This document shows positions 8,023 to 28,657 of a stretch of 34,211 nucleotides of DNA, piece after piece (position 1 is the first letter of the stretch; every line of letters begins with the position of its first letter). Source of the DNA: Alphaproteobacteria bacterium (GTDB lineage: Bacteria; Pseudomonadota; Alphaproteobacteria; Rhodobacterales; Rhodobacteraceae); the NCBI GenBank assembly GCA_024280735.1, contig JAJRPO010000056.1:1-34211 (forward strand), in the 5' to 3' direction. Under the pieces are notes generated by a model. It was not told the origin of the DNA and searched no databases. It was given only the letters and a program-made list of their open reading frames with translations. Both the position numbers and the translations under genes were made by a program.

Positions 8023-10098
8023 TCAGCGCCACAAATAGGCATAGCTGGCAAACAGCCCCTGTGCTTTGGCCAACAGGCGGACAGAGCGGCCGGAACCGCG
8101 CCCCAAGCTGCCTGTTGCAAGGCGTTCCAATACGGTTTCGACCGCGCAAGGGCTGCCGGTTACAGGATCCCAATAGCGCGGGTATCCGATCAGCGTTGCG
8201 TGGATCAGGGCGGCAAGGGTTGGGCGCGCTTGGCGGCGGGGGGGCGTTGGGCCTTCGTCTTGGGTCAGCCCCCAGCCCGCATAGAAAGGCGCACCGAAAC
8301 AGATCACTTTCTTGCCGCGCAACAGGGCCTCGAATCCAGTGAGCGAGGTCATCGTGCTGACGATATCCACCTTGTCCAGCAGCGCCGATATATCTGCATC
8401 CAACATGACAGTATCCGCCAATTCACCGGCATTAATTTTACCTTTGCGCAGGCCTTTCTGCACATCGGGGTGGGGCTTGTAGATCAGGTAATCATTCGGA
8501 AACAGCGCCCGCGTTCGGTGGATTAGGTCAAGGTTTGTTGTGACTTTATCCGCCCCCTTCAGGATCGAGGCATCATCTTCGACTTGCCCCGGGACCAGAA
8601 TGATTTTCTGGCCGGACTTGGCAGTAATTTCCGGCAGGTCACCGCCAAGATTGTACTTTGACAGACCCGCCTTAACGATATTTTGGCGCAAATTCTCTGC
8701 CCGTTGCAGTTCATACTCCGGCAAGCAAACCGCCGCTGTTATCACCCTTTCCAAACGGCTCTCGCGGGTTGGGTCGTAATAAATTCCAAGGTCGTCAAAG
8801 ACCAGCGAAACGGGTTGCACCAACTCCGCCCCTAACCCAGCAGAACGCAGAAAACCATCCTCGACCCGCAGGAGCGGGACATCGGCGGCCTTGGCAGCCG
8901 TGTTCAGCTCTCGGGTTTCTTTGCCAGCCCAAACAGCGACGCTGCCTTTCAGCCGCTTGGCCTCTGCAATGGCCGTAGGTGCGTCTTCAATAAACCGGGG
9001 CGCACCCGCAGGGCCAAACAGGTAGGATTTCAGAAAGCCACGTTTCCACAGGCGCATGGCGTGGCAGATCACCGGCGATTGCGCACCACGCATGGCGTTG
9101 GCTTGTGCAGTCAGGGTTTGCGCTGTTGCTTCAAAGCTGGACCGTCGATCAAAGATCGGATCATACCATGCGCAGTACGTCAGGTAGGTGGCGCTGAATA
9201 ATTGTGCCGCAGTGCGGCGGGCATTCAGTTTGGTTTTTGGGTGACGGTCTGCGGTCAGCCCCCAACCACTATAAAACGCATTGCCGTACACAACCGGCTT
9301 GTGACCCGCAAAAATCGCTTCCATTCCTAATTGCGAGGACACGGTGTAAACCGCCTTAGCCTTGGCAAACAAGTGCCATGGGGACACGGGGTCAACCCAT
9401 AGGGAAGTTTGGCCCACCACATCCCCTGCCCCGAAATAGCCCGCCCGCCTGCCCGCCATGACTTCGGGGTGGGTTTTGATAATGATTGCTGTGTCGGGGT
9501 GGTCCCGCCGTGCATCCGCCAACATCTGCGCAAATGTATCCCCGTCCGCACCACTGCCACTGACCGAGGCGTCATTGTAAGTTTGATCAATCACCAGCAC
9601 AAACCCATCCGGTAAATCCGGTGGGTCCAGCGGGAAATCATTGTATTTCGACAGGTGATTGCGGCGCAGCGTATCAATGCCATTTTCTGCGCGTTGCAAT
9701 TCGTCTGAGTTGGCGCCTCCTGCCTCCAGAATGAGCTGGTGCAGGCAGTTGTCCTGCCCTGTTTCAAAATAGATGCCTAGATCGTCAGCAATCAACGACA
9801 ACCCCGCCGCGCCCTGCCGCCCGGTTTGAACGGAACGCAGAAAACCGTCCTCAAAACTAACCACCCCTGCGCCGCGAAACCGTGCCACGGCAATCCCGCG
9901 TTTGGAAACTGGTTTACGGCCCCAAATGCCGACGCGCTCACTTGCATTCGGCAACCCGATACGGGGCCACCAGCCAAGTGCTGTCATCATCTTATTCAAA
10001 GGCCGGTTCAAAAAACCCAGAGAATAAACAAAAATCCGCGACAAGGGTTGCTCCCCTGCCGCGGATTTAAATGCCGTTTTATTAGGTGGCTTAGCCAC
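8023..10098 (-). CDS. kpsC: Capsule beta-Kdo transferase KpsC
   Basis: KpsC adds beta-Kdo residues to the lipid-anchored linker of group 2-type capsules at the cytoplasmic side of the inner membrane. The 691-residue protein shows the expected tandem duplication. Repeat 1 has SFEDGFLRSV, DDLGIYFE, IIIKTHPEV and YGNAFYSGWGLT; repeat 2, from about residue 370, has RVEDGFLRSAGLG, DDLGIYYDP, LIYKPHPDVQ and FGAPFYAGWGLTQDEG. The start is GTG 10098, which overlaps the end of the preceding export gene by 8 bases (GTGGCTAA), implying translational coupling since no clear ribosome binding site is visible. It is the last gene of the kpsS - wza-like - kpsC operon. Confidence 0.95.
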   Translation of the reverse strand: MAKPPNKTAFKSAAGEQPLSRIFVYSLGFLNRPLNKMMTALGWWPRIGLPNASERVGIWGRKPVSKRGIAVARFRGAGVVSFEDGFLRSVQTGRQGAAGLSLIADDLGIYFETGQDNCLHQLILEAGGANSDELQRAENGIDTLRRNHLSKYNDFPLDPPDLPDGFVLVIDQTYNDASVSGSGADGDTFAQMLADARRDHPDTAIIIKTHPEVMAGRRAGYFGAGDVVGQTSLWVDPVSPWHLFAKAKAVYTVSSQLGMEAIFAGHKPVVYGNAFYSGWGLTADRHPKTKLNARRTAAQLFSATYLTYCAWYDPIFDRRSSFEATAQTLTAQANAMRGAQSPVICHAMRLWKRGFLKSYLFGPAGAPRFIEDAPTAIAEAKRLKGSVAVWAGKETRELNTAAKAADVPLLRVEDGFLRSAGLGAELVQPVSLVFDDLGIYYDPTRESRLERVITAAVCLPEYELQRAENLRQNIVKAGLSKYNLGGDLPEITAKSGQKIILVPGQVEDDASILKGADKVTTNLDLIHRTRALFPNDYLIYKPHPDVQKGLRKGKINAGELADTVMLDADISALLDKVDIVSTMTSLTGFEALLRGKKVICFGAPFYAGWGLTQDEGPTPPRRQARPTLAALIHATLIGYPRYWDPVTGSPCAVETVLERLATGSLGRGSGRSVRLLAKAQGLFASYAYLWR

Positions 10099-11239
10099 CA
10101 GCTGAACTGCTCAGCGTACCGGCAGCCCCCACACTGGAAGTCAAAACAGACAGTGTTTTGGTCCATTGTACATAAGGTGCTTCGGTCACATAAATCGTAT
10201 CACCGTCACGAATTTGAAAGTCACGGCCCAAGAACACGCCGGTCGGCTCGGTCAAATCCAGCACATAAGCGAACCGTTTAGGCGTTTCAAAATCATTGCG
10301 GCCCAACACACGATTGGCATATTCCGCAGTTTCGTCGCGAAAGATAAAGATGCCTGTCGGATCGGCCAACGAGCTGTTCAACCCGCCAAGAAAGGCAATC
10401 GCCTCAATCGCGGACATTGTTGGTTTCGGGAATTCCACCAAAGACTGCGCGCCCGTGGCCCCAAGGGCGGTAAAGCGGCGGGTGTCTTCGGCAATCAAGA
10501 TGCGATCACCTGGACGCAACGCAATATCTTGTTTGTTGTCGTTGTACAGGTCTTCCAACCAAACCGTGCCTTTGTGGCTGCCACGGATCACCGATACACG
10601 GGTGTTTTCTGGCTGACTTGTTACACCGCCAGAGGCCGCAATCATGGTGGACAGGGTGCTGGTAGAGGCCTCGATCGGGAAAACGCCCTGACCGCCTGTG
10701 CCAACAATCGAAACGGTGGAACCGTCGCCTGCCGCGCGCTGCATGATGATTTGCGGCTCTGGTGTTTGCGGTTCCAGCTTGCGGGTTACTATCTTGCGCA
10801 GGCTTTCGGGTGAATTGCCTGCCGCGCGGATACGCCCGACATACGGGATAAAAATGTGGCCGGTCTGATCGACCTGCAATTCCGTCAACGTGGACGGTGC
10901 GCCTGCAATGCCAAACAAGCCATCCTCGACGTTTTCATATACTGTTACCAGCAACGTGTCGCCGGGGCGAATGGTGTCTGCACCAATCTTGCCCGCTTTC
11001 AGGAAACGCTCATCGAAGCCGACATTCCCCGCCGCCGCCGTGGCCTGAACCACGCGATCATTGACGGAAATAATATAGGCGTTGCCCTGCTTTTGGACGC
11101 TACCCGCGAAAATTTCACGTTTATTAGGTCCAACACGCGGCAGTCCACAGGACGACACGGCGAAAGCCAATACGCAAAGAGCCATTAACCCGGCCCTGGG
11201 TTTTAGAAAATTTGACAAGGTTACTGCCCCTTTTGTCAA
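10091..11239 (-). CDS. Polysaccharide export outer-membrane lipoprotein (Wza/KpsD family)
   Basis: Predicted lipoprotein of the capsule export channel. The N-terminus has a basic segment (SNFLKPR), a hydrophobic core (LMALCVLAFAV) and a lipobox VSSC, after which the mature chain starts with Cys. Next comes the poly-export (PES) domain (DTIRPGDTLLVTVYE, GHIFIPYVGRIRAAG) and two SLBB-like segments (around TLSTMIAASGGV and AIEAIAFLGGLN). The C-terminus ends in RDGDTIYVTEAPYVQW and a short Ser/Gly tail. Starts: TTG 11239 with GAGG at 5 bases, TTG 11218 with AAGGGG, or ATG 11185, which would remove the basic signal region; 11239 is used here. Operon partner of kpsS and kpsC; no kpsMTE are in the window. 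Confidence 0.92.
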   Translation of the reverse strand: MTKGAVTLSNFLKPRAGLMALCVLAFAVSSCGLPRVGPNKREIFAGSVQKQGNAYIISVNDRVVQATAAAGNVGFDERFLKAGKIGADTIRPGDTLLVTVYENVEDGLFGIAGAPSTLTELQVDQTGHIFIPYVGRIRAAGNSPESLRKIVTRKLEPQTPEPQIIMQRAAGDGSTVSIVGTGGQGVFPIEASTSTLSTMIAASGGVTSQPENTRVSVIRGSHKGTVWLEDLYNDNKQDIALRPGDRILIAEDTRRFTALGATGAQSLVEFPKPTMSAIEAIAFLGGLNSSLADPTGIFIFRDETAEYANRVLGRNDFETPKRFAYVLDLTEPTGVFLGRDFQIRDGDTIYVTEAPYVQWTKTLSVLTSSVGAAGTLSSSAGG

Positions 11240-11341
11240 AACTGCCTCGGTTTATTGCCATCCCCTAGATTTAGGTGAACGGATTTTTTCTTTTACCCTA
11301 CAGAATGTCACAGGAATATCAAAGGGTTTTGCCACAGTAGT

Positions 11342-12643
11342 TTATTTCACAACCTGTAACTGTTGCATAGGTGCCGCGTTGTTATGCGCCAGCAAGTCGT
11401 AGGGGTCATGGTCAGACAGCACCATATCCACCACTTGGCGCACCAACCGCACCCGCCCCTTGCGCGAGTAAAACCCGCCGGTGATTTGCGAGGTCATCAA
11501 CAAATATTGGCGGTAATCGCGATAGGCAGACAGGTCGGGTTTCTTGGGGTTGGCCAAAAAATCATTCAACGACTGGGGGGATGTGAATTCCGGCTTGCAG
11601 AAAACCCCCGCCCCCAGCGCCTTGACCGGCAACCCCCGCCACAGCGCCTGTTGGGCGGCGGTGGAATTAATAGTGATAACAGAACGGGCGTAATCCAGCA
11701 GTTCCGCCAGTTTGCCACCGCGCACGAAATGCACCCGCCCCGTGACGCCATATTGTTCGGCCAATTCTGCCGTTACCTCGGATAATGGTTGGCGGTCATC
11801 CTCTAGCGGATGGGATTTGAACACCAGATGGTGATGATGCGGTGCGTTTTTGGCAAATGCAGCCACGCAAACCTTCATAAAATCCGGCATGTTGGTGAAA
11901 TTGGAATGGCTGCGGATCGAGGCGTCATGGCTGAGTTGCAGCAGCGCCAGATGATAGACAAAGCCGTTGCGCTTGATCCGTCGCGTGGCCCGCCAACGCT
12001 TAAAGGCATGGGTCGGGCGCGACAGCAAGCGTTTCAGATGCAGCCAGAATTCATGGCTGACAGGGCTGTCGCGGTGGGATTTGTAGTTCTTGAAGCGATA
12101 ATTGCGAAACAGGATGTGCCAATGATAAACCGCCCCCAGCAGAATGTGCTGGCGCATATCCCCCCAGCGGGCCGGGGCCTCTGGCTGGTCGTTGTCAACA
12201 AATTGCAACGCGTTGCGCATGGTTTCAACCGACATATCCATCAGGCGGGAATGGCCGTTCACGCCGCCGCGCTCATAAGTTACCCAATAGGGGCGCAGAT
12301 AGCCCTCTTCAAAGCAATGGATGCGAATGCCCAAAGCCTCTGCCGCCGCAATGGCAGATTTATGGATTGGGCGCGTGTCGCCGTAGATCACCATATCCGT
12401 AATGCCATCCGCCAAATAACTGTGGATATAGGCATCCCAAGTATCCAGCGGGTCGGTAAACTCAACAAAGCTTTTGCGATTGCGCCAGAAAAACCGATCG
12501 CCCTCGTTAAAGCCGATTTTAGTAACTTTGGCGCCGGAATCGCCGATCGCCTTGGACAGCTCATAAAAGAACGGCCCATGCGGCCCCTGTAAAAACAGGA
12601 ACGACTTTTGGCTTATGTCCGTGTGGCTTGGCACACCCATCAT
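11342..12643 (-). CDS. kpsS: Capsule beta-Kdo transferase KpsS
   Basis: KpsS starts the poly-Kdo linker on phosphatidylglycerol during capsule assembly; KpsC then extends it. The 433-residue protein has the family opening FLFLQGPHGPFFYELSKAIG, then VIYGDTRPIHKSAIAAA and HCFEEGYLRPYWVTYERGGVN. The C-terminal half has VFKSHPLEDDRQPL and TINSTAAQQALWRGLPVKALG, typical of the capsule polysaccharide biosynthesis domain. ATG 12643 is preceded by AGAGGG; a second ATG follows immediately. First gene of the capsule operon, transcribed divergently from ribE across 176 bases. A 102-base gap separates it from the lipoprotein gene. Confidence 0.94.
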   Translation of the reverse strand: MMGVPSHTDISQKSFLFLQGPHGPFFYELSKAIGDSGAKVTKIGFNEGDRFFWRNRKSFVEFTDPLDTWDAYIHSYLADGITDMVIYGDTRPIHKSAIAAAEALGIRIHCFEEGYLRPYWVTYERGGVNGHSRLMDMSVETMRNALQFVDNDQPEAPARWGDMRQHILLGAVYHWHILFRNYRFKNYKSHRDSPVSHEFWLHLKRLLSRPTHAFKRWRATRRIKRNGFVYHLALLQLSHDASIRSHSNFTNMPDFMKVCVAAFAKNAPHHHHLVFKSHPLEDDRQPLSEVTAELAEQYGVTGRVHFVRGGKLAELLDYARSVITINSTAAQQALWRGLPVKALGAGVFCKPEFTSPQSLNDFLANPKKPDLSAYRDYRQYLLMTSQITGGFYSRKGRVRLVRQVVDMVLSDHDPYDLLAHNNAAPMQQLQVVK

Positions 12644-15511: not shown

Positions 15512-16534
15512 GTGGCGGGGCCAGATCATCCTGGCCCCCTGCACGGCATTTCCGTGATTGAGGTTTCCGGCCTCGGCCCCACACCTTTTGCCGCCATGCT
15601 ATTGGCGGATATGGGCGCGGATGTCGTGCGTATCGAGCGGCCAAATGCCAAGGCGTTACTGCCGCAAAAACCCGACTTCCTGAATCGGGGGCGCCCGGTG
15701 GTCACGATTGATTTGAAATCCGAAACCGGTGTTTCTGCCGCAATCGAGCTGATCAAAAATGCCGATTTGTTAATAGAGGGCCTACGCCCCGGCGTGATGG
15801 AGCGCCTCGGCTTGGGGCCGGATACCGCCCTTAAAGCAAACCCCAAACTGGTTTACGGACGGATGACTGGCTGGGGACAAGACGGCCCTTTGGCGCAAAC
15901 GGCGGGGCACGATATTAATTACATCGCCATCACCGGCGCATTGCACGCGATTGGCACCATAGACACCCCTGTTGCGCCGCTCAACCTGCTGGGGGACTTT
16001 GGTGGTGGATCGCTTTATCTGGTGAACGGCCTGCTCGCTGCCCTGTTAAGCGCGGCGCGCAGCGGCCAGGGACAAGTGGTTGACTGTGCCATTGTTGATG
16101 GCACTGCCAGCCTGATGACAATGACCTATTCGCTGGCGAATTCCGGCTTGTGGCAGGATAAGCGACAGGCAAACCTGTTGGATGGGGGCGCACCTTTTTA
16201 CGGGGTATACCGTTGCGCCGATGACAAGTTTCTGGCTGTGGGGGCGATTGAGCCACAGTTTTACGCCGCCCTGTTGCGCGGGTTGAAACTGGAAACACCC
16301 CCCCTGCCCGCCCAGTTGGATCAACCGCGCTGGCCTGAATTGCGCGCAGCCCTTGAACAACGCATTGCGCAGAAATCCCGTGATAACTGGGCCGCGGTTT
16401 TTGACGGCACCGACGCTTGCGTAGCCCCCGTTTTAACCCTGGCAGAAGCCCGCATTTATCCGGCTAACGTGGCCCGCAACGTTTTTGATCCGGCCACAGG
16501 GGAACCTTGCAAAGCACCGAGATTTACCCGCTGA
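15512..16534 (+). CDS. CaiB/BaiF family protein, alpha-methylacyl-CoA racemase type
   Basis: Family III CoA-transferase fold; the details point to the racemase branch that epimerises 2-methyl-branched acyl-CoAs. The racemase pair is present: His133 in [12 protein letters not shown] and Asp162 in LLGDFGGGS. Other signatures are [44 protein letters not shown] and [13 protein letters not shown]. The start is GTG 15512, only 2 bases after the nusB stop, with a weak ribosome binding site. At 340 residues it ends right after KAPRFTR, about 20-30 residues shorter than usual. A shifted frame after this point reads [11 protein letters not shown] before a stop, so a small 3' frameshift or natural shortening is possible. 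Confidence 0.88.
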
Positions 16535-18072: not shown

Positions 18073-18657
18073 TTATTCAGCAGCGACAATTACAGTTTTA
18101 CCACGCATATTTTCTGGCAACGAGTATGCCACCAGGATAATCACGATTCCCAAAATAACACCCAGAATATCGCCGGACACTGCCGTCAGCCCATCATATT
18201 TCGCGCCGGGAACGGTTCCAAGGGTGACTTTGCCACCACCGATTTTCTCCATCAAGCCGGTTGCCTTTACGCTCGTGTATGTGGCCATATAGGCCGCAGC
18301 CCCGAGCAAGCCACCCGCGATAAAGAACAGTGCGTCTTTGCGCCCAGCCGCAGCTGCTGCAATGCCAGTGCCGGGGCAATAGCCGCTGACAGCCCAACCA
18401 ACACCCAGCAGAGCACCGCCAACAAACACGCCTACATAAGCGGATTTTACGGACATGTGCGCAACATCAACCAGGCCCAGCATCTGGCCACCAAACATCA
18501 GCATAGAACCAATGCCAATGGCCAGCAGAATGGTTTTCGCCAGATTAAGATTGGTCAGGTTCAGCATTTTCCCGATCAGGTCAGGATTAGTCGCCCCAAT
18601 CCGATCCAGCACGGCGCCAAAGGCAGCACCAATTACAAGTGCAAGTATAAGTGTCAT
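18073..18657 (-). CDS. YeeE/YedE-type sulfur transporter half (DUF6691-like)
   Basis: Inner-membrane protein of 194 residues, with several hydrophobic helices. It carries the family cysteine motif GWAVSGYCPGTGIAAAAAGR, in which the Cys corresponds to a sulfur-relay cysteine of the thiosulfate transporter YeeE/TsuA. Starts with MTLILALVIGAAFGAVLDRIG. Together with the gene 5 bases upstream it forms a split two-subunit version of the YeeE/YedE fold, as in other proteobacteria. The likely cargo is thiosulfate or a related reduced or persulfidic sulfur species; the direction of transport is not certain. Its position next to a desulfinase operon suggests a role in sulfur handling there. Confidence 0.88.
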   Translation of the reverse strand: MTLILALVIGAAFGAVLDRIGATNPDLIGKMLNLTNLNLAKTILLAIGIGSMLMFGGQMLGLVDVAHMSVKSAYVGVFVGGALLGVGWAVSGYCPGTGIAAAAAGRKDALFFIAGGLLGAAAYMATYTSVKATGLMEKIGGGKVTLGTVPGAKYDGLTAVSGDILGVILGIVIILVAYSLPENMRGKTVIVAAE

Positions 18658-18662
18658 ATCTT

Positions 18663-19211
18663 TTATCCTCTCTTAAACAGTATCATGGCAGTTGGAATCG
18701 CCGCGCCAAACGCGCCCAGTGCAAAAATATAACCCGACAACGATGTTTGCATCATGCCCGACATCATATGCCCCGAGGTGCAACCACCGGCCAAACGCGC
18801 TCCGTACAACACAACGAAGCCGGCTATGAAAGTGGCTATGTAGCGCCGCACAGGGCTGTCGCCAAAGTTAGCGCGCCACAGCTCTGGAACCGAACGGTCC
18901 GTCTTTGCCACACCACCGCGCAGAAACGAAGAACCAGCCGCACCGATAACCATGGCCACCACAAACAAGAAGCTGTAGTTCAACGGGTTCGCTGCGTTTT
19001 TGGCATATTTGCCATTCGATTTCGCCAAATAGGCATTAGAGGACGTATAGCCGTCGGCAGTTTTCGTGATCACTTCGCTATCCACGGCGTTCCACACAAT
19101 TGAATCGAGGATCACAAATTGTGTAGAGACGCCAATCGGCTTCACTAACAGGACCGCCAGAAAGAACACCAGCCCTAACGCCAGTCCTCCGGTTTTCCAA
19201 TTTAAAGTCAT
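18663..19211 (-). CDS. YeeE/YedE-type sulfur transporter half
   Basis: Partner subunit of 182 residues. An N-terminal hydrophobic helix (LALGLVFFLAVLLVKPIGV) is followed by a periplasmic-looking loop of about 70 residues, then helices around SFLFVVAMVIGAAGSSFL and TFIAGFVVLYGARLAGGCTSG. GGCTSGHMMSGM holds the second conserved Cys motif of the YeeE family. AAGGTAT precedes ATG 19211. It is the first gene of a two-gene unit with its own promoter region, which contains an SqrR/BigR-like palindrome and an FnrL-like box. Whether the long loop is usual for this subfamily I cannot say. Confidence 0.88.
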   Translation of the reverse strand: MTLNWKTGGLALGLVFFLAVLLVKPIGVSTQFVILDSIVWNAVDSEVITKTADGYTSSNAYLAKSNGKYAKNAANPLNYSFLFVVAMVIGAAGSSFLRGGVAKTDRSVPELWRANFGDSPVRRYIATFIAGFVVLYGARLAGGCTSGHMMSGMMQTSLSGYIFALGAFGAAIPTAMILFKRG

Positions 19212-19446: not shown

Positions 19447-19875
19447 TCAGTCGCGAACAACAAACACCGATTGCGTAGCGTGACGCACCACGCGGGCAGA
19501 GTTTGGCCCGAGCAGATAGTCCTTCATTTCAGAGCGATGCGAGGCCATCACAATCAGATCGCAACCCGCACTATCGGCGGCCTTGATGATAGATTTGTAG
19601 ATCGAGCCATGCAGCACATGCGCCGTTGTCTTGATGCCAGACGGGATGTTATCCGCGACCAGTTGCTTTAACACCTCTTGGGATGTTTGCGCCGCTTTGG
19701 CAGCAAAATCTTTGGGGAATTGATCGGCAACCATGGCCATCCCGTAATCGGGGATGACCGTTAGCACATGGATTTCAGCCTCGTCCAACCGGGCCAAGGC
19801 AACCGCTTGCGGGATTGCTTTGGACCAAGAGCTTTTGTGGTTCAAGTCCACAGACACAAGGATTGATTTTGTCAT
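19447..19875 (-). CDS. Universal stress protein (UspA family), TRAP-linked
   Basis: A 142-residue cytosolic Usp domain protein: TKSILVSVDLNHKSSWSKAI at the start, HVLTVIPDYGM, then GCDLIVMASHRSEMKDYLLG and a final SVFVVRD. The nucleotide loop usually reads G-x2-G-x9-G-S/T; here the first glycines are missing (ASHRSEMKDYLLGPNSA), so ATP binding may be weakened. ATG 19875 is chosen over the longer frame because GGGAGA lies before it. It begins 11 bases after the TRAP permease gene. Usp proteins encoded with TRAP transporters (for example TeaD with TeaABC) are thought to tune transport, and the same role is likely here. Confidence 0.9.
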   Translation of the reverse strand: MTKSILVSVDLNHKSSWSKAIPQAVALARLDEAEIHVLTVIPDYGMAMVADQFPKDFAAKAAQTSQEVLKQLVADNIPSGIKTTAHVLHGSIYKSIIKAADSAGCDLIVMASHRSEMKDYLLGPNSARVVRHATQSVFVVRD

Positions 19876-19886
19876 TTTCTGTCTCC

Positions 19887-22499
19887 CTATACCGCTGCAG
19901 TTTCGGCCTTGCGAACGCGGCCAAGTTGCAACATGATAACCAATCCCAGCAATAACAGCGCTGGAATATAGAAGATTTCTTTCGGCAGACGTTCCGCATC
20001 CACCTCGATACGCAGCACCTCCCAATCGAAATCCACGCCCTTTTTCTGGGCGTATTGGCCAAACATCACGTTATCCACATAGGTTTTGCCATCGTCCTCG
20101 GTCCGAAACGAAATACCGGAGGTTTTCAGCAAACGTGCCGCCCCGTCGCCGTCCTTCATCTCACCCAGCAACAATGAAACCGTGGTTTCCACATCGTTAC
20201 CAGAGGCGAAATCCTCCCCTGCAAGGCGGACCCGCAAGGCTGCACCATCTTCGGCGGTACTGGCCATTTCAACCAGTTGCGAGGCATCGACAAACACGTA
20301 AGGGTCTTCCATTTTGTTCAGCCAATAGCCCGGCGTGAACAATGTAAAGGCAATCAGCAGCAAAGCCGCATTTTCCCACATGCGTGATTTGGTCAAAAAC
20401 CAGTTCTGCGTTGCTGCGGCGAACAGCATCATCGCAATGACCGCGATAATAAAGACAAACACCGCCTTACCTACCGTCACATCTATCAACAACAGATCCG
20501 TGTTGAAAATGAACAGGAATGGCAGAATGGCCGTCCGCACATCATAGCTAAAACCGATGATACCCGTCTTGATGGGATCGCCCTTGGAAATCGCCGCCGC
20601 CGCAAAGGCTGCAAGCCCCACCGGTGGTGTGTCATCCGCAAGGATGCCAAAGTAGAACACGAACAAGTGGACCGCGATAAGCGGCACGATCAGGCCAGAC
20701 TTGGCCCCAACGGCAATGATCACCGGAGCCATCAACGAGGTGATAACGATGTAGGTCGCCGTGGTTGGCAGCCCCATCCCCAACACAAGGCTGAACAGCG
20801 CCACAAAGACCAGCATCAACAGCAAACTGCCGCCAGAGATAATCTCGATGAATTCACCAATCACCTGATGCGCACCAGTCAGCGACACAGTACCCACGAT
20901 GATACCCGCCGTACCCGTGGCCACCGCGATGCCGATCATGTTGCGTGAACCGGAAATCATCCCGTCGATCAGGTTTCCCCAACCAACAGTGAAGCGTTCC
21001 ATGTAATTGCTCTCACCGCGAAAGAAGGCTTTCAGCGGGTGCTGTGTCAACATCACAAACATCATCGCCATGGTTGCCCAATAGGCAGACAGACCCGGTG
21101 TTTTGCGTTCAATCATCAGGTTCCAGATCAGGACGATCACCGGCAAAGCATAGTAAGTGCCCGATTTCGCAATCGGTCCCGGCTGTGGCAGTTCCAGAAA
21201 CGGCGCATCTGGATCGTCAATTTTCAGATCAGGTTGTTTAGAGGCTGAGCGGATCAACACCAGATAGACAACCACGAACAGAACACACATGCCAATCAGA
21301 TTGAACTGACCCAGAACTGGCTGCAACCAGCTGAGGCCGTAATAAACGGCGAGGCTTAAGCCGCAGAACATGGCAACACCGAAAGACATGCTCATGACCC
21401 GCTGTGACATGGTCTTTTTCGCACCTGTGCGCGGCAGACCCTCAAGGCCCATTTTGCAGGCCTCCAGATGCACAATATAGACCAGAGCGATGTAGGAAAT
21501 GATCGCAGGCAGAAAGGCGTGTTTCACCACTTCAAGGTAGGGAATGCCGACATATTCCACCATCAAGAAGGCCGCAGCCCCCATCACTGGCGGTGTCAAC
21601 TGGCCGTTGGTGGAGGATGCAACCTCTACCGCGCCAGCCTTTTCAGCCGAGAACCCGACCCGCATCATCAGCGGAATGGTGAATGTGCCGGTGGTCACCG
21701 TGTTGGCGATTGAGGAGCCGGAGATCAGGCCCGTTGCAGCAGACGCCACAACCGCAGCCTTTGCAGGACCGCCTTTAAGGTGGCCCATCATCGCAAATGC
21801 CAGTTGGATAAAGAAGTTGCCCGCGCCCGCCTTATCCAGCAGGGAGCCGAACAACACAAACAGGAACACCATCGAGGCCGAAACCCCCAGCGCCGTGCCG
21901 AACACACCCTCGTTTTGCATCCAGAAATGCCACATGGCCTTGCCAAAACTGGCACCTTTCCACTGCATCGCATCCGGAATAAAGGCCTGATCACCATAGA
22001 AGACGTAGACCAGAAAGAAGCCCGCGACGACAACCATAGGCAAGCCCAGCGCGCGGTATGTGGCGACCAAAACGATCGACAGACCAACCGCAGAGGCAAT
22101 CAAATCGCCCGTCGTCGGCAAGCCGGAACGATCCGCAATCGCCGATTGGTTGGCCAGCAGATAGAAACTGGCACCAACCCCGAGCAGGGCCAAGGCCCAG
22201 TCATACAGCGGAATATGGTTGCGAGAAGAGTTTTTGAACAGGGGGAAGGCAATGCAAGCCATCAACAGGCCAAATGCCAGATGGATGATACGCTCTTGCC
22301 CAGAAGTCACATAGAAAAAGCTCACCCCAGTCCATGCCGCCAGATTTGCCGGCAGCGGGGAGGCGTTAAAGACCTGAAGAACCGCCCATAAAAGCGCAAT
22401 TCCAGCGATAAATTTTCCTTGCCAATTATCAGGACTCCGCGCGCCGACATCCAGTTCGGCGACAAAATCCCTCTTTTCGGCTGATGCAGCCTCGGTCAT
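19887..22499 (-). CDS. TRAP transporter permease, fused 4TM/12TM, TAXI type, with DUF3394 tail
   Basis: Inner-membrane subunit in which the small (DctQ-like) and large (DctM-like) permeases are joined; about 870 residues. The large-subunit core shows SGSSIANTVTTGTFTIPLMMR, GQLTPPVMGAAAFLMVEY, GMGLPTTATYIVITSLMAPV and AFAAAAISKGDPIKTGI. After the last permease helices comes a soluble domain of about 130 residues (DUF3394) and a final helix (IPALLLLGLVIMLQLG). ATG 22499 is chosen over ATG 22514 because GGGGAGA falls exactly between them. It works with the TAXI binding protein encoded upstream, driven by an ion gradient. The cargo is inferred to be an organic acid used by the Act/Acd enzymes. 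Confidence 0.95.
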   Translation of the reverse strand: MTEAASAEKRDFVAELDVGARSPDNWQGKFIAGIALLWAVLQVFNASPLPANLAAWTGVSFFYVTSGQERIIHLAFGLLMACIAFPLFKNSSRNHIPLYDWALALLGVGASFYLLANQSAIADRSGLPTTGDLIASAVGLSIVLVATYRALGLPMVVVAGFFLVYVFYGDQAFIPDAMQWKGASFGKAMWHFWMQNEGVFGTALGVSASMVFLFVLFGSLLDKAGAGNFFIQLAFAMMGHLKGGPAKAAVVASAATGLISGSSIANTVTTGTFTIPLMMRVGFSAEKAGAVEVASSTNGQLTPPVMGAAAFLMVEYVGIPYLEVVKHAFLPAIISYIALVYIVHLEACKMGLEGLPRTGAKKTMSQRVMSMSFGVAMFCGLSLAVYYGLSWLQPVLGQFNLIGMCVLFVVVYLVLIRSASKQPDLKIDDPDAPFLELPQPGPIAKSGTYYALPVIVLIWNLMIERKTPGLSAYWATMAMMFVMLTQHPLKAFFRGESNYMERFTVGWGNLIDGMISGSRNMIGIAVATGTAGIIVGTVSLTGAHQVIGEFIEIISGGSLLLMLVFVALFSLVLGMGLPTTATYIVITSLMAPVIIAVGAKSGLIVPLIAVHLFVFYFGILADDTPPVGLAAFAAAAISKGDPIKTGIIGFSYDVRTAILPFLFIFNTDLLLIDVTVGKAVFVFIIAVIAMMLFAAATQNWFLTKSRMWENAALLLIAFTLFTPGYWLNKMEDPYVFVDASQLVEMASTAEDGAALRVRLAGEDFASGNDVETTVSLLLGEMKDGDGAARLLKTSGISFRTEDDGKTYVDNVMFGQYAQKKGVDFDWEVLRIEVDAERLPKEIFYIPALLLLGLVIMLQLGRVRKAETAAV

Positions 22500-22555
22500 G
22501 TTGTTTCTCCCCATCCTGATTTTTTCAGGTATCTATTTTGATTTAATAATTGCGT

Positions 22556-22604: not shown

Positions 22605-23573
22605 TTAGTCCATCAGGCCCAGCTCTTTGTACGCGCGGATTGCGCCGGCGTGCAAAGGAGCGGACAGGCTGTCACGGATCATTTCTTCGGCTTTCAGATT
22701 TGCAAATGCAGGGTGCAATTTGCGGAAATCATCCAGATTGCCCAAAACAGCGATGGCGACACGGTAAACCGCTTCTTCAGAAACATCGGTGGATGTCACG
22801 AAAGTTGCGCCAACACCAAAGGTTTGGATGTCGTCCGGATTGCCAGGGTACATGCCACCCGGGATGGTTGCCATCCGGTAGTATGGTTTCTCAGCAACCA
22901 AAGCAGTGATTTCCGGGGAAACCGCTGGAACAATCACCGCATCGCAAGAGGCAACTGATTCAGCGGTTGAACCGGAGGGGTGACCCACCAGCCAGAAATA
23001 GCCGTCAATTTTGCCATCACACATAGCGCCCGGAGTTTCCGAGGACTTCATTTTGGAGGCCAGTGCCAGATCGGAGCGTTTCCAGCCCAATACTTCTTCG
23101 ATCACTTCCCAAGTACCTTGCGTACCGGAACCATCGTTGCCGATGTTAAAGCGTTTGCCTTTGATGTCGGTGATGTTCTTGATACCCGCATCGCGGCGCG
23201 CCAGAATTGTCACAGGCTCAGCGTGAACCGAAAACACAGCCCGCAGTTTTTTGAAAGGGCCTGCATCTTTGAACTTGGACGTGCCATTATAGGCGTGGTA
23301 CTGCCAATCAGATTGGGCAACGCCAAATTCCAGCTCGCCGGAACGCAGCGTGTTGATGTTGTAGATCGACCCACCGGTTGATTCCACAGAACAGCGGATG
23401 CCGTGTTCTTTGCGGGTTTTGTTGACCAGACGGCAAATCGCGCCACCTGTAGGGTAATAAACCCCGGTTACACCACCGGTGCCGATAGAAACGAATTGCT
23501 GTTCAGCAGCCGATCCCATTGTTGCCGATAGCATGAGAGCCGTCGTTGCGGCTGCTATTTTTGTAAACTTCAT
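22605..23573 (-). CDS. TAXI-family TRAP transporter solute-binding protein
   Basis: Periplasmic binding protein of 322 residues. A signal peptide (MKFTKIAAATTALMLSATMG, cleavage near GSA|AE) is followed by the family opening FVSIGTGGVTGVYYPTGGAI, then GSIYNINTLRSGELEFGVAQSD and GSGTQGTWEVIEEVLGW. ATG 23573 is chosen because GGGAGAACAAC precedes it and the signal peptide starts there; longer in-frame starts are not credible. Partner of the fused permease. The pocket-defining residues cannot be read for substrate, so ligand assignment rests on the operon: sulfinate or other short organic acids. Confidence 0.95.
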   Translation of the reverse strand: MKFTKIAAATTALMLSATMGSAAEQQFVSIGTGGVTGVYYPTGGAICRLVNKTRKEHGIRCSVESTGGSIYNINTLRSGELEFGVAQSDWQYHAYNGTSKFKDAGPFKKLRAVFSVHAEPVTILARRDAGIKNITDIKGKRFNIGNDGSGTQGTWEVIEEVLGWKRSDLALASKMKSSETPGAMCDGKIDGYFWLVGHPSGSTAESVASCDAVIVPAVSPEITALVAEKPYYRMATIPGGMYPGNPDDIQTFGVGATFVTSTDVSEEAVYRVAIAVLGNLDDFRKLHPAFANLKAEEMIRDSLSAPLHAGAIRAYKELGLMD

Positions 23574-23664
23574 GTTGTTCTCCCTTTGAAGTTTGCGGTT
23601 GGATTTGCGCAGCGCTAGCATTGCAAAAAGATTCGGTTTTGTGAATAAATAACTTTTGTTTTGT

Positions 23665-25281
23665 TCAAAACGCACCATGGTAGCCAATTTTGTCAATCTT
23701 GCAGGCCAGAATAGTGAAACCTGTGCGGTTTTCCGCCCTGATTAACGCTTCTTTTAGTTGAGTTGATTCGCTCACCCACTCACCATAACCGCCATAAGCC
23801 TGAGCTAAAGCCACAAAATCAGTGCTGCCAAAAGTGACGCCGGCTTCGCGCAATTGCATAGCTGTTTGTTTGCGGCCAATCAGGGTGAGGGCATTGTCCA
23901 CCAACACCACGATTGTCAGCGGGATATTCATATCGCGCAGTGTCGCTAAATCACCCGCTGTCATATCCAGCCCCGCGTCTCCAACCACCGCCACCACCGG
24001 CGTATCCGGCGCGGCGAGGCGGTAGCCCATGGCAAGGGGCACCGCGATGCCCATGGTGCAAAAAGCGGTGGATTGCAGGATTTGCGACGGTCGGTTTGAG
24101 TGCCACATCTGCGAAATCAGGATGCGATGCGCGCCGCTGTCGACCGTTACTACCGCCGTGTCGGGCAATTCGCTGTCCAGCGTTGCAAACACGGCGTGAG
24201 GCCCCCAATCTGGGCGGGGTGCGAAATGGGTGGTCAATGCCTCACGGGCCATTTGTGGCATTTCATCAGGCCAAAGGCCGCTGAGTGGTTCTTGCAACCC
24301 GTTGCCAAGGGCACGGGTTGCGGCGGCGACATCACCAACAAATCGCAAGGCCGAGCCGTGCATACCGTGTTCCACTTGGGCGTGGCAAAACTCCATTGCG
24401 ACATCAGCCGCCCACGGGCGGAGCCAATCGGCGCGCATCTCAATCGGATCATAGCCCAGCAGGATCACGCAATCGGAGGCAGCCAGCAGCGGCAGGACGG
24501 TTTTGTCAGACAACGGCGACAAGCCATGACCGCCAAGGCAGTTCGGGTGGTCCTCTGGAATGATACCCTTTGCCTTGTAAGTGGTTAGAACCGGAATGTT
24601 ATGGGTCTCGCTCAGGGCCAAAATATCAGGGCCAGCGCCGTGCAACACCGCACCGATACCGGCCAAAATAATGGGGCGTTCGGCGTTTTTTAGACGCGCA
24701 ATCGCTTGTTCCAGAAAGGCCCCCTGCCCCAGCACAGGTTTTTCGGTGATGGTTGCGGGCATGTCCAGCAACAGGGTTGGGTCCAGCGCCAAAGTATCCG
24801 GCAGATCGATGTGAACAGGGCCGGGCGGATCGGCGCGGGCGATCGACAGGGCCTTGGCCACCACCTGCGCGGCGGTGCCTTTGGCCACTTGAAAACGGGC
24901 TTTGGTGATTGGGGCCAGCAAGGCGGATTGGTCGATAACCTGATGGGTGAAACCCTCGGCCTGCGACGGGCCAATGCAGCCGGACAAGACAATCAGCGGC
25001 ACCTGTTCTTGGAAGGCGTTGGCGATGGAGTTCAGGCCATTTGCGAGGCCCGGGCCAATGGTTGTCAGCAGAATACCGGGGGTGCCAGTGGCTTGCCAAG
25101 TACCCTCGGCCATAAAGCCGGCGGCGTTTTCGTGTTTGCACAGAGTGAAGGCAACGCCCTCGTTTTCCAATGCGTCCAGCAGCACCAGAACTTCGCCTCC
25201 GGGCATCCCGAAAGCGTGTTTGCATCCTGCTGCCGCAAGGCCTTGGGCAATAGCGGTGGCGGCGGTTACTGTATGGCTCAT
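23665..25281 (-). CDS. Thiamine-diphosphate-dependent enzyme (acetolactate synthase-like), substrate unknown
   Basis: A 538-residue member of the POX/BFD/ALS family. PYR domain: AFGMPGGEVLVLLDALE, with the cofactor-activating Glu in LCKHENAAGFMAEG and TTIGPGLANGLNSIAN. Middle domain from about residue 190 (RPIILAGIGAVLHGAG). PP domain: GIAVPLAMGYRLA and the ThDP/Mg signature VVGDAGLDMTAGDLATLRDM ending at Asn in VLVDNALTLIG. It is not an obvious biosynthetic acetolactate synthase because no small subunit follows and it sits in a catabolic operon. Its start overlaps the acd stop by four bases (ATGA). Decarboxylation or C-C cleavage of a 2-oxo acid or aldehyde feeding the sulfinate route is an inference. 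Xsc-type sulfoacetaldehyde acetyltransferase is another possibility, though that enzyme is longer. Confidence 0.88.
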   Translation of the reverse strand: MSHTVTAATAIAQGLAAAGCKHAFGMPGGEVLVLLDALENEGVAFTLCKHENAAGFMAEGTWQATGTPGILLTTIGPGLANGLNSIANAFQEQVPLIVLSGCIGPSQAEGFTHQVIDQSALLAPITKARFQVAKGTAAQVVAKALSIARADPPGPVHIDLPDTLALDPTLLLDMPATITEKPVLGQGAFLEQAIARLKNAERPIILAGIGAVLHGAGPDILALSETHNIPVLTTYKAKGIIPEDHPNCLGGHGLSPLSDKTVLPLLAASDCVILLGYDPIEMRADWLRPWAADVAMEFCHAQVEHGMHGSALRFVGDVAAATRALGNGLQEPLSGLWPDEMPQMAREALTTHFAPRPDWGPHAVFATLDSELPDTAVVTVDSGAHRILISQMWHSNRPSQILQSTAFCTMGIAVPLAMGYRLAAPDTPVVAVVGDAGLDMTAGDLATLRDMNIPLTIVVLVDNALTLIGRKQTAMQLREAGVTFGSTDFVALAQAYGGYGEWVSESTQLKEALIRAENRTGFTILACKIDKIGYHGAF

Positions 25282-26471
25282 TTCGGTAAATACCCCCCAC
25301 GGGTTTGTGGCGTTTTCATATCAAGGACGCGACCCGCAATCAGGTTACGCAACATTTGCGCGGTGCCGCCGCCGATGGTGAACATACGGGCATCGCGGAC
25401 CATGCGCTCAATTGGCAGGTTACGGGAATATCCAACGGCGCCGTGCATCTGTAGCGCGTCATTGGAAACTTTCACGGCGGTCTCAGAGGCGATCAATTTG
25501 GCCTGCGCCGCCATCAAGGGATCGGGAAACCCGCTACCTGTCGTTTCAGCACTTGCCGCCGCCCGCCACAGCATCATACGGGCCGCCTCTAGCGAGACAT
25601 TCATATCGGCAACCATCCATTGCAGGCCTTGGAATTCTGCGATTGGGCGTCCGAACTGTTCGCGCACCTGAATATAATCACAGGCCGCATCATAGGCCCC
25701 CGCCGCCACGCCCAGCGCCACAGTTCCGGCACCGACGCGCTGGCCGTTATAGGCGTTCATCAGGCCGGCAAAACCACGTTTCAGCCCCTCGGGCGGGATC
25801 ACCGCCATGTCTGCGCTGATCTCAAGATCGTTGAAATGGATTTCGGTTTCGGGAATGCCGCGCAGACCCATGGCAGGTTCCCGGCTGCCAATGACAAGGC
25901 CCTCGTCCTCGCCGCGCACGGCGATAAAACCGCCGATGCCGAGGCGCTCGCCGTTTTCCTCTACTTGCGCGAAAATCAGATGCGCCTTGGAAACGCCGCC
26001 GCCGGTGATCCAGTGTTTGGTGCCGTTCAGGATGTATTTGTCACCCTTTTTCACCGCCACCGTCGTCATATCCGTGGCCGCAGAACCCGACCCCGGTTCG
26101 GTGATGCAAATAGCCGGTTTGTCACCAGCCAGAACCAACGGGGCCACACGGTCAATCTGGGCTTTGGAACCATAGGCACAAATCGCGCCAATCGCACCCA
26201 TGTTGCCCTCAACCACGATGCGCCCCGTGACGCCGCAGGCCTTGGCCATTTCCTCAACCACCAGCACCACATCGAGGTAGGAACACCCTTGCCCGCCGTG
26301 TTCTTTGGGAATGCACATGCCCATAAAACCCGCTTCGGTCAGCAGCTTGATATTGTCCCAAGGATATTCCTCAGTGCGGTCCACCTCGGCGGCGCGTTCC
26401 TTGATTGGGCCTTGCGCCAGTTTGCGCGCAGTGGCCTGAATTTGCAGTTGTTCGGGGGAGAGTTGAAACAT
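25278..26471 (-). CDS. acd: Acyl-CoA dehydrogenase-fold desulfinase, probable 3-sulfinopropanoyl-CoA desulfinase
   Basis: Would cleave 3-sulfinopropanoyl-CoA to propionyl-CoA and sulfite; FAD protein, cytosolic. The 397 residues have the whole acyl-CoA dehydrogenase fold (ICITEPGSGSAATDMTT; QMHGAVGYSRNLPIERMVRD). The dehydrogenase base is missing at both places where the superfamily carries it: helix G reads LMNAYNGQRVGAG with Gln244, and the C-terminal motif reads FTIGGGTAQ with Gly368. Arg84 is present in VTGRIVVEGN. In AcdDPN7 of Advenella mimigardefordensis the reported desulfinase hallmarks are Arg84, Gln246 and Gly366, and many flanking segments match what I recall of that protein (EEYPWDN, LVLAGDKPAICI, YILNGTKHWITGGGVSK). 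It starts on the stop codon of the CoA transferase gene (TAATG). Plain dehydrogenase activity is unlikely. Confidence 0.9.
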   Translation of the reverse strand: MFQLSPEQLQIQATARKLAQGPIKERAAEVDRTEEYPWDNIKLLTEAGFMGMCIPKEHGGQGCSYLDVVLVVEEMAKACGVTGRIVVEGNMGAIGAICAYGSKAQIDRVAPLVLAGDKPAICITEPGSGSAATDMTTVAVKKGDKYILNGTKHWITGGGVSKAHLIFAQVEENGERLGIGGFIAVRGEDEGLVIGSREPAMGLRGIPETEIHFNDLEISADMAVIPPEGLKRGFAGLMNAYNGQRVGAGTVALGVAAGAYDAACDYIQVREQFGRPIAEFQGLQWMVADMNVSLEAARMMLWRAAASAETTGSGFPDPLMAAQAKLIASETAVKVSNDALQMHGAVGYSRNLPIERMVRDARMFTIGGGTAQMLRNLIAGRVLDMKTPQTRGGYLPK

Positions 26472-27682
26472 TAGCTTTTTTCCGTCTTGGGGGCATTCTC
26501 GCCCAGTAATTCGTTCAGAACCGCGTCAGTATCCGCGCCACAAAGCGGCGGCGCGTGGCGGTAGGTTACCGGGGTTTCGCTGAATTTTATCGGGTTGCCG
26601 ATCAGATCAACATGGCCTGAGGCGGCCAAGGGATGCGGCATCGAGATTTTCATATCGCGCGCCGCCACCTGTTCGCTGGCAAACACTTCGGCGATAGTGT
26701 TGATTTCGCCGCCCGGCACTTTGGCCGCTTCCATCGCCGCCACCAGCGGGGTTTTCTGCATCTGTTTGATGCGTAATTCCAGTATCGCGATCAAACCTTC
26801 GCGATTTTCCAGTCGGGCGCTGTTGGTGGTGTATTTCGGATCATCCGCCAGTTGCGGCAAGTCAATCAGCGCCGCAAAGCGGGCGAATTGGGCGTCGTTG
26901 CCAGCAGCCACCACTAAGTGGCCGTCAGAGGTGGCAAACACTTGATACGGTACAATATTGGGATGCTGGTTGCCACGGCGCTTTGGTTCTTGACCCGACG
27001 CTAGATAATTCACGCCCTCATTTATCAGCCATGCCACCTGAGTATCGGCCAAGGCAATGTCGATATGCTGCCCCTGCCCTGTTTTATCGCGATGACGCAG
27101 GGCGGCCAGAATGGCGTTGCTGGCATACATGCCGCACATCACATCGGCGATGCCAACCCCGACCTTTGTCGGCTCACCCTCTGGCGCGCCTGTCAGGGCC
27201 ATCATGCCACCGAAAGCCTGTGCCAAAAGGTCATAACCCGGTCGGTGTGAATTGGGGCCAGTCTGGCCAAAACCGGAAATCGAGCAATAAATCAGGTCAG
27301 GCTTGCGTTGCTTGAGCACATCGTAATCCAGCCCGTATTTGGTCAGCCCGCCTACCTTGAAATTCTGGATCACCACATCGCATTTTTCGGCCAGTTTACG
27401 CAATATCTCTGCCCCCGCCGGATCCCCCATATCCACTGCAATCGAGCGTTTGTTGCGGTTGGTACTCATGTAATAGGCACTCTCGCGGGTGGCCTCGCCC
27501 TTGGCGGTGGTCACATAAGGCGGCCCCCAGCCCCGTGTATCATCGCCAACCACGGGACGCTCGACCTTGATAATGTCAGCCCCCATATCACCCAGCAATT
27601 GCGTGGCATACGGCCCTGCGAGGATGCGTGACATATCGAGGATGCGCAGCCCGTCCAGCGGGCCTGTCGGTTTATCTGTCAT
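26471..27682 (-). CDS. act: Family III CoA transferase, probable succinyl-CoA:3-sulfinopropionate CoA transferase
   Basis: Activates a carboxylic acid to its CoA thioester using a CoA donor, probably succinyl-CoA. The 403 residues show LDMSRILAGPYATQLLGDMG, ADIIKVERP, NKRSIAVDM, CSISGFGQTGPN and the catalytic aspartate Asp180 in VGVGIADVMCG. The immediate co-transcription with a desulfinase gene matches the act-acd pair known from Variovorax paradoxus TBEA6, hence the proposed substrate; a family III transferase by itself would not reveal it. ATG 27682 is taken as start (MTDKPTGPLDGLRILD). There is no strong ribosome binding site, and the only upstream alternative is a TTG at 27739. First gene of the operon, divergent from lysR. 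Confidence 0.88.
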   Translation of the reverse strand: MTDKPTGPLDGLRILDMSRILAGPYATQLLGDMGADIIKVERPVVGDDTRGWGPPYVTTAKGEATRESAYYMSTNRNKRSIAVDMGDPAGAEILRKLAEKCDVVIQNFKVGGLTKYGLDYDVLKQRKPDLIYCSISGFGQTGPNSHRPGYDLLAQAFGGMMALTGAPEGEPTKVGVGIADVMCGMYASNAILAALRHRDKTGQGQHIDIALADTQVAWLINEGVNYLASGQEPKRRGNQHPNIVPYQVFATSDGHLVVAAGNDAQFARFAALIDLPQLADDPKYTTNSARLENREGLIAILELRIKQMQKTPLVAAMEAAKVPGGEINTIAEVFASEQVAARDMKISMPHPLAASGHVDLIGNPIKFSETPVTYRHAPPLCGADTDAVLNELLGENAPKTEKS

Positions 27683-27790: not shown

Positions 27791-28657
27791 ATGCAAACCG
27801 CTCACCTCCGCAGCCTTCTGGCGATCAAAGAAACTGGCAGTTTTACCGCAGCGGCGGCGGCTGTTCATCTCAGCCATTCTGCGGTCAGTGTGCAAATGAA
27901 ACAGCTGGAGCAGCAACTCGGCGCGCCGCTGTTTGTCAAGGGACGTCGCCCTGCGTTGCTGACCCCCCTTGGCGAAGAAATATCTGAACGCGCGCGCGAT
28001 ATTGTGGACCAGTTGGACGGCCTCAAGGCACTGGCAAGTGCCGATAACCTCGGGGGCCGTATCAAGTTGGGGTTTGTGCCAACCACATTACAAACGCTGC
28101 TGCCTGTTGTATTGGAACGGTTGCGGTCCGAATTCCCCAATTTACGCGTGGCGGTGCGCTCTGGCCTCTCTAGTGATCTGGCAAAAATGGTCGAGGATCA
28201 ACATATCGATTTCGCCTTTTTATCTGCGCCTGTTTCCGACCCTGCCTTGATCCGTTTGCATGAATTGGGGTCAGAGCCTCTGTTTCTGGTACAGGCAAAA
28301 TCCGCTACTTCTGAACGGGCCAAAGAGGCCGAGATCTTGCGTCAAAACCCCTATATCGCCTTTAGCCGAACAACGTGGCTGGGGGCGCAGATTGCCAGTT
28401 ATCTGACCCAAGGCGGATACAAGGTAGAGCCAGAGATCGAGCTGGATTCCTTTGATGCCATTGAACATCTGGTGGCGCGAGGTTTTGGGGTTTCGATTGT
28501 GCCTCAACGCCTGCTGGCGGCGCCTTTGCAAGACAGCCTACAGTGTATTACGCTTGGCCAACCCGCCCCAGTGCGGCGTGTCATGCTGGCCACCCCGCGC
28601 CATTGCCAGCGCCAGACCGTTTTGCGTTGCCTTAGCAATATTGCATCCAGCGCTTGA
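27791..28657 (+). CDS. LysR-family transcriptional regulator of the act-acd operon
   Basis: A 288-residue LysR-type regulator. The N-terminal winged helix-turn-helix reads HLRSLLAIKETGSFTAAAAA and VHLSHSAVSVQMKQLEQQLG, with LFVKGRRPALLTPLGEE following. The effector domain starts near residue 90 (IKLGFVPTTLQTLLPVVLER) and ends with AIEHLVARGFGVSIVPQRLL. Divergent orientation and a shared 108-base promoter region suggest it activates the act-acd-ThDP-TRAP operon in response to the substrate or its CoA ester. Confidence 0.94.
   Translation: MQTAHLRSLLAIKETGSFTAAAAAVHLSHSAVSVQMKQLEQQLGAPLFVKGRRPALLTPLGEEISERARDIVDQLDGLKALASADNLGGRIKLGFVPTTLQTLLPVVLERLRSEFPNLRVAVRSGLSSDLAKMVEDQHIDFAFLSAPVSDPALIRLHELGSEPLFLVQAKSATSERAKEAEILRQNPYIAFSRTTWLGAQIASYLTQGGYKVEPEIELDSFDAIEHLVARGFGVSIVPQRLLAAPLQDSLQCITLGQPAPVRRVMLATPRHCQRQTVLRCLSNIASSA

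Follow-up and report, generated by a model that had tools for sequence, protein, structure and literature searches.

A 3-sulfinopropanoyl-CoA desulfinase family member in a variant operon from a Rhodobacteraceae genome

The stretch of DNA analysed here (hereafter the window) comprises 34,211 nucleotides of contig JAJRPO010000056.1 (assembly GCA_024280735.1), from an alphaproteobacterium of the family Rhodobacteraceae. On its minus strand, it encodes a protein of the acyl-CoA dehydrogenase superfamily (Acd, 25278-26471) that belongs by family, active-site residues and clade to the 3-sulfinopropanoyl-CoA desulfinases, and that is preceded by a family III CoA-transferase (Act, 26471-27682). Act would load coenzyme A (CoA) onto 3-sulfinopropionate, with succinyl-CoA as the probable donor, and Acd would then split 3-sulfinopropanoyl-CoA into propionyl-CoA and sulfite; since Acd has no catalytic base, it would not carry out dehydrogenation. 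The two genes lie in one operon with a thiamine diphosphate (ThDP) enzyme and a TAXI-TRAP importer, both of which may serve the same pathway, and the operon is presumably controlled by a divergent LysR-type regulator. We assign this sequence-based reading a probability of about 0.88. A methylmalonyl-CoA-mutase-type gene, for the disposal of propionyl-CoA, is present in the window's genome.

The desulfinase family was established through studies of bacteria living on precursors of industrial polythioesters, in which the substrate is made by a dioxygenase. The operon of the window matters because a search of 23 genomes gave no match for this dioxygenase, and a ThDP enzyme accompanies the desulfinase instead. 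Acd thus appears as a member of a known family placed in a variant operon, and the question raised by this operon is the source of the substrate.

Acd and Act

The sequence-only reading of this DNA had proposed that the pair releases sulfite from an activated sulfinate acid, on the basis of Gln244, Gly368 and Arg84 in the dehydrogenase-like protein. Both open frames were recovered at the coordinates that it gave, and positions 84, 244 and 368 of Acd (397 amino acids) are indeed R, Q and G. In the HMMER alignment, they stand opposite Arg84, Gln246 and Gly366 of PDB 5AF7, the very counterparts that had been proposed. The structure table labels 5AF7 simply as an acyl-CoA dehydrogenase; we take it to be the desulfinase of Advenella mimigardefordensis DPN7 (PDB 5AF7, 5AHS; NF042439), with which Acd shares full-length homology, the three residues and the clade. 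Among solved structures, 5AF7/5AHS are the best matches of Acd with 514.7 bits, 266 bits ahead of the next one (248.1 bits). Furthermore, the curated cut-off of NCBIfam NF042439, the model for 3-sulfinopropanoyl-CoA desulfinases, is 600 bits, and Acd exceeds it with 651.6. A standard pipeline should therefore name the protein correctly, contrary to the earlier expectation that automated annotation would call it an ordinary dehydrogenase.

The three positions were followed in an alignment of 111 sequences (each locus represented once, by a match of 330 or more aligned residues, with four PDB chains from the HMMER output added). All 70 sequences with at least 52% identity, among them the window and 5AF7, have the R/Q/G triad and none of the 41 more distant ones does, a separation above chance. 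The column of Gly368 is occupied by Glu in 38 of these distant members, and the other three (L134, L029 and L002) have Glu in the column of Gln244. Moreover, in a 90-row tree obtained with a quick method and without bootstrap, the window Acd falls inside the 70-row clade containing 5AF7 with an SH-aLRT support of 100. The alignment and the clade, which had been suggested as checks, are both in agreement with a desulfinase beside a family III CoA-transferase. Hence, as far as sequence data can tell, Acd is a new member of the known desulfinase family, and desulfination is well supported as its predicted reaction.

Separately, locus L134 (7798-10133) encodes two tandem relatives of desulfinases (43-44% identity) that are under the family cut-off, and one aligned relative from this locus has Glu in the Gln244 column and Gly in the Gly368 column. 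From this sequence, it may be a dehydrogenase closely related to the desulfinases.

Act (403 amino acids from its ATG) matches PF02515 with 436.1 bits, and its stop codon overlaps the start of Acd by one base (TAATG). In 26 of a set of 73 desulfinase loci (53 + 20 by source), several of which are cut by contig ends, Act is the first or second gene upstream of Acd; in four more, it follows the ThDP gene. The window Act groups in the tree with other alphaproteobacterial Acts from desulfinase loci, and betaproteobacterial Acts located beside desulfinases, 53-56% identical to it, form a separate clade. In a sample of 196 genomes from the order, 22 were counted as carrying a desulfinase (19 over the NF042439 cut-off and three at 498-551 bits); 19 of them have a relative of Act with at least 55% identity, the best relatives reaching 50% in G110 and 46% in G151.

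Several observations on Act weigh against our reading of the operon. Its specificity is inferred from its position beside Acd, and it stays under the cut-offs of all specific NCBIfam equivalogs, the best being NF052585 with 480.1 of 750 bits; this cut-off is likewise missed by two Acts that adjoin desulfinases elsewhere (510.2 bits in L061 and 493.0 bits in L041). In addition, the Act subfamily, as a sister group in the tree, also occurs in periplasmic-glucan operons devoid of desulfinase. Finally, genome G184, which belongs to the same genus and holds locus L080, has the operon without Act and shows no relative of Act elsewhere at an E-value of 1e-90, so that CoA activation in this genome must depend on a different enzyme.

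The ThDP enzyme and the layout of the operon

The genes of the minus strand are ordered as follows: Act, Acd, the ThDP enzyme (23665-25281), the TAXI solute-binding protein (22605-23579), a fused TRAP membrane component (19887-22514) and a universal stress protein. At the Act/Acd and Acd/ThDP junctions, the start of each gene overlaps the stop of the one before it, the start of the ThDP gene sharing four bases (ATGA) with the stop of Acd. The regulator (27791-28657, plus strand; PF00126, PF03466) is transcribed divergently. The TRAP component, which ends in a DUF3394 domain, scores 606.2 bits against TIGR02123 and also matches PF06808 and PF11874. In 31 of the 73 desulfinase loci, the ThDP gene is the next one after Acd, with broken or miscalled frames in three of these (L039, L063 and L081); the TAXI and TRAP genes come next in line in nine loci. 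While the Act/Acd part of the operon described by the sequence-only reading holds, that description stopped before the ThDP enzyme, the TAXI-TRAP importer and the missing 3-mercaptopropionate dioxygenase (Mdo).

The ThDP enzyme (538 amino acids, three TPP_enzyme Pfam domains) is of the acetolactate synthase type by sequence and by predicted fold. Its closest solved structures are acetolactate synthases (199 bits). Its AlphaFold2 model (mean pLDDT 88.9) leads Foldseek to the same type, with no hint on the substrate, and its fold resembles that of catabolic acetolactate synthase (e.g. PDB 4RJJ) with a TM-score of about 0.9. However, identity with the latter is 26% and no acetolactate synthase equivalog cut-off is reached; among the best 25 of 55 NCBIfam families, no equivalog was passed, the highest being NF006187 with 330.7 of 509 bits. 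Other enzyme kinds that came to mind for this gene were set aside. Sulfoacetaldehyde acetyltransferase and sulfopyruvate decarboxylase are outside these best 25 of 55 families, and the pairing of an oxalyl-CoA decarboxylase with a formyl-CoA transferase is disfavored, since oxalyl-CoA decarboxylases and 2-hydroxyacyl-CoA lyases score at most 147 bits versus 199 for acetolactate synthases.

In the order sample, homologues of the ThDP enzyme, defined as matches above 430 bits (a threshold picked after the list was seen), are present in 85 of the 196 genomes. They occur in 21 of the 22 desulfinase genomes versus 64 of the 174 others (Fisher p 7e-8, ancestry not counted). In these 22 genomes, the gene is located beside Acd in eight and elsewhere in 13, G151 having none. 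Of the homologues located elsewhere, 20 were inspected: a relative of Act comes next in 18, and three protein families recur in the vicinity, TPR (15 loci), OpgC-like (12) and MdoG-like (16), each assigned from one or two members scanned with Pfam. Nine loci (L050, L057, L059, L060, L069, L119, L127, L128 and L132) also have the TPR family close to Acd. For instance, L132 has in a row a desulfinase relative, ThDP enzyme, Act, TPR, OpgC and MdoG genes. The desulfinase clade members of such glucan operons (L131-L133) have 52-55% identity and score below the family cut-off (498-551 bits).

A comparable association is known from Variovorax paradoxus TBEA6, in which a gene described as a putative acetolactate synthase, ilvX (VPARA_05550), is clustered with mdo, act and acdA (PMC6370202). 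As in the window, this act-acdA-mdo-ilvX cluster brings together a CoA-transferase, a desulfinase and an acetolactate-synthase-like gene, the likeness of IlvX to the ThDP enzyme being one of description only. A difference from the window is that TBEA6 possesses mdo and can use thiodipropionate for growth. According to the same paper, all products of the cluster were raised on 3-sulfinopropionate and IlvX was also more abundant on thiodipropionate, and deletion of ilvX left growth on thiodipropionate unchanged.

Origin of the substrate

Mdo was searched for with two queries, the thiol dioxygenase that adjoins Acd in L073 (28.7 bits against PF05995) and PF05995 itself. None of the 23 genomes searched, 22 of which bear the desulfinase, matches either query, the window's own genome being 71% complete. 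As a positive control, the L073 query was run against 35 other desulfinase genomes, 13 of which gave matches with at least 51% identity, namely all 10 betaproteobacterial genomes and three alphaproteobacterial ones (L072, L078 and L083); weak matches (30-37%, or 28%) were obtained in four others (L049, L052, L054 and L076). The window's genome thus appears not to encode the dioxygenase of the known Mdo-Act-Acd pathway. Strong Mdo matches are found in none of the 17 genomes with the ThDP gene beside Acd versus 13 of the 18 without (Fisher p 7.4e-6, unadjusted), but significance is lost once ancestry is counted, the comparison then coming down to 2 or 3 independent contrasts. The Advenella cluster (PMC5373536) includes CoA-transferase, Acd, Mdo and TctC genes, whereas the window has the ThDP enzyme and the TAXI-TRAP importer, and Mdo was not found there. 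In the literature on sulfinopropionate and its CoA ester, covered through titles and the beginnings of abstracts with most subscription journals outside that coverage, no work on Rhodobacteraceae desulfinases appeared. For the bacterial degradation of homohypotaurine, the literature listings brought up work on starch only, and for 3-mercaptopropionic acid in connection with acrylate and marine sediments, work on polyesters only.

The TAXI protein (330.1 bits against TIGR02122, cut-off 84.35) is 58% identical to VcGluP (VC0430, PDB 8S4J; 412.8 bits), a TAXI protein that binds glutamate. All six VcGluP residues Y45, S75, Q93, H123, E125 and G156 are conserved, including Tyr45 and Gln93, whose loss reduces affinity most (PMC11574862). 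By contrast, S, D, Y and M of VcGluP at positions 40, 157, 200 and 201 are replaced by G, T, W and L in the window protein. In VcGluP, according to the same paper, residue 157 holds a water molecule at the alpha-carboxylate, residue 200 flanks the side chain and the main chain of residue 201 touches the amino group. T157/W200/L201 is found in all 11 TAXI proteins of the window type. Ten of these belong to desulfinase operons and the eleventh comes from L054, whose transporter is placed upstream in divergent orientation; this locus encodes another TAXI protein, 34% identical, that is of a different kind. In 12 genomes with 28 alignable TAXI proteins, the three of the window type again have T/W/L and all eight paralogues with 52-64% identity have Q157/Y200/T201, the remaining 17 (at most 34% identity) being too distant for such a reading of residues. 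Since the residues contacting the amino acid are kept and the protein has its own T/W/L, its ligand is likely to be amino-acid-like, other than or besides glutamate. This pattern is a hint rather than a proof, as Y45 is present in 78% of TAXI proteins (PMC11574862).

How these bacteria would obtain 3-sulfinopropionate can be viewed in different ways. Direct uptake of this compound, or of a disulfide or thiol precursor that would be oxidized, if needed, by a dioxygenase outside the cysteine dioxygenase family, has a little less than an even chance; the ThDP enzyme would then have a side role. This is compatible with the same end of the pathway, with the scope of the Mdo search, defined by one Mdo and PF05995 and their relatives, and with the dispensability of IlvX on thiodipropionate (PMC6370202), but it explains neither the adjacency of the ThDP gene in 31 of 73 loci nor the amino-acid-type binding protein. 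The substrate could also come from a longer route, added upstream of Act and Acd, which we regard as tentative and rather unlikely. L-homocysteine sulfinate is a glutamate analogue. It could be imported by the TAXI-TRAP system and converted by a general aminotransferase into 2-oxo-4-sulfinobutanoate, whose decarboxylation by the ThDP enzyme would give 3-sulfinopropanal, which a succinate-semialdehyde dehydrogenase would oxidize to 3-sulfinopropionate. Such catabolism of L-homocysteine sulfinate (or of its 2-oxo acid), ending in propionyl-CoA and sulfite, would be a route previously undescribed in Rhodobacteraceae. The lack of Mdo matches, the high frequency of the ThDP homologue in desulfinase genomes, and the six VcGluP residues kept together with a type-specific T/W/L are in its favor. 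Furthermore, a succinate-semialdehyde dehydrogenase scores over cut-off in G000, G184 and G122. Homohypotaurine, formed by decarboxylation of homocysteine sulfinate, is converted in vitro into 3-sulfinopropionate by GABA transaminase and succinate-semialdehyde dehydrogenase (PMC11396700), and L119 (7689-15279) carries on one strand the genes act-acd-TPR-YeiH-like-gabT-gabD, as this chemistry would ask. On the other hand, the ThDP enzyme most resembles acetolactate synthase and its substrate can be read from neither sequence nor fold, its relatives also occur in glucan operons without desulfinase, and the ilvX deletion was silent on thiodipropionate. Moreover, shared ancestry confounds both the loss of Mdo and the adjacency of the ThDP gene, and residues recognizing an amino group are common among TAXI proteins.

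The reaction itself is less in doubt. Action of Acd on a different beta-sulfinyl acyl-CoA would fit the divergence of L131-L133 in glucan operons, yet the window Acd exceeds the family cut-off and keeps the triad, which makes this improbable. Still less credible is an ordinary acyl-CoA dehydrogenase with its base elsewhere: despite the superfamily fold and an acryloyl-CoA reductase as second-best family (306.7 of 640 bits), Gln and Gly occupy both usual base positions and the protein lies in the desulfinase clade, residues and clade that led us to reject this candidate. Under the preferred reading, a desulfinase fed by Act, the identity of the initial substrate would reveal the natural diet of these bacteria and would assign a role to the ThDP enzyme, whose Variovorax counterpart is induced without a growth phenotype on thiodipropionate (PMC6370202). 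If the homocysteine sulfinate route were true, it would provide a function for the IlvX-like enzyme and a natural source of desulfinase substrate without Mdo.

Neighboring genes and related operons

The universal stress protein gene (19447-19875, minus strand; PF00582, 93.6 bits) is the last one of the conserved part of the operon. Homologues were found in 10 of 93 loci searched, directly after the TRAP gene in nine of these. Two YeeE/YedE-like sulfur transport halves (PF04143, cut-off 27) follow on the same strand at 18663-19211 (53.6 bits) and 18073-18657 (35.2 bits) and may extend the operon; no homologue of this pair (18073-19211) was detected in the 93 loci searched. In L041 (17009-19096), and likewise in L042, L043 and L044, genes for a beta-keto acid cleavage enzyme (BKACE) and a class III aminotransferase, assigned from one scanned gene of each, come right after the stress-protein gene. 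They do not follow the operon in L037 or L086 and were therefore excluded from its core.

In several Rhodobacteraceae loci (L135-L137, L139-L142, L144-L152 and L154; e.g. L139, 7612-13080), TPR, OpgC and MdoG (periplasmic glucan) genes are accompanied by those for a family III CoA-transferase and a ThDP enzyme. The window itself encodes a further family III CoA-transferase of 340 amino acids on the plus strand (15512-16534), located downstream of what look, by eye, like nusB and genes of riboflavin synthesis. At 8023-12643, the minus strand encodes a protein for polysaccharide export as well as two for capsule synthesis (PF05159).

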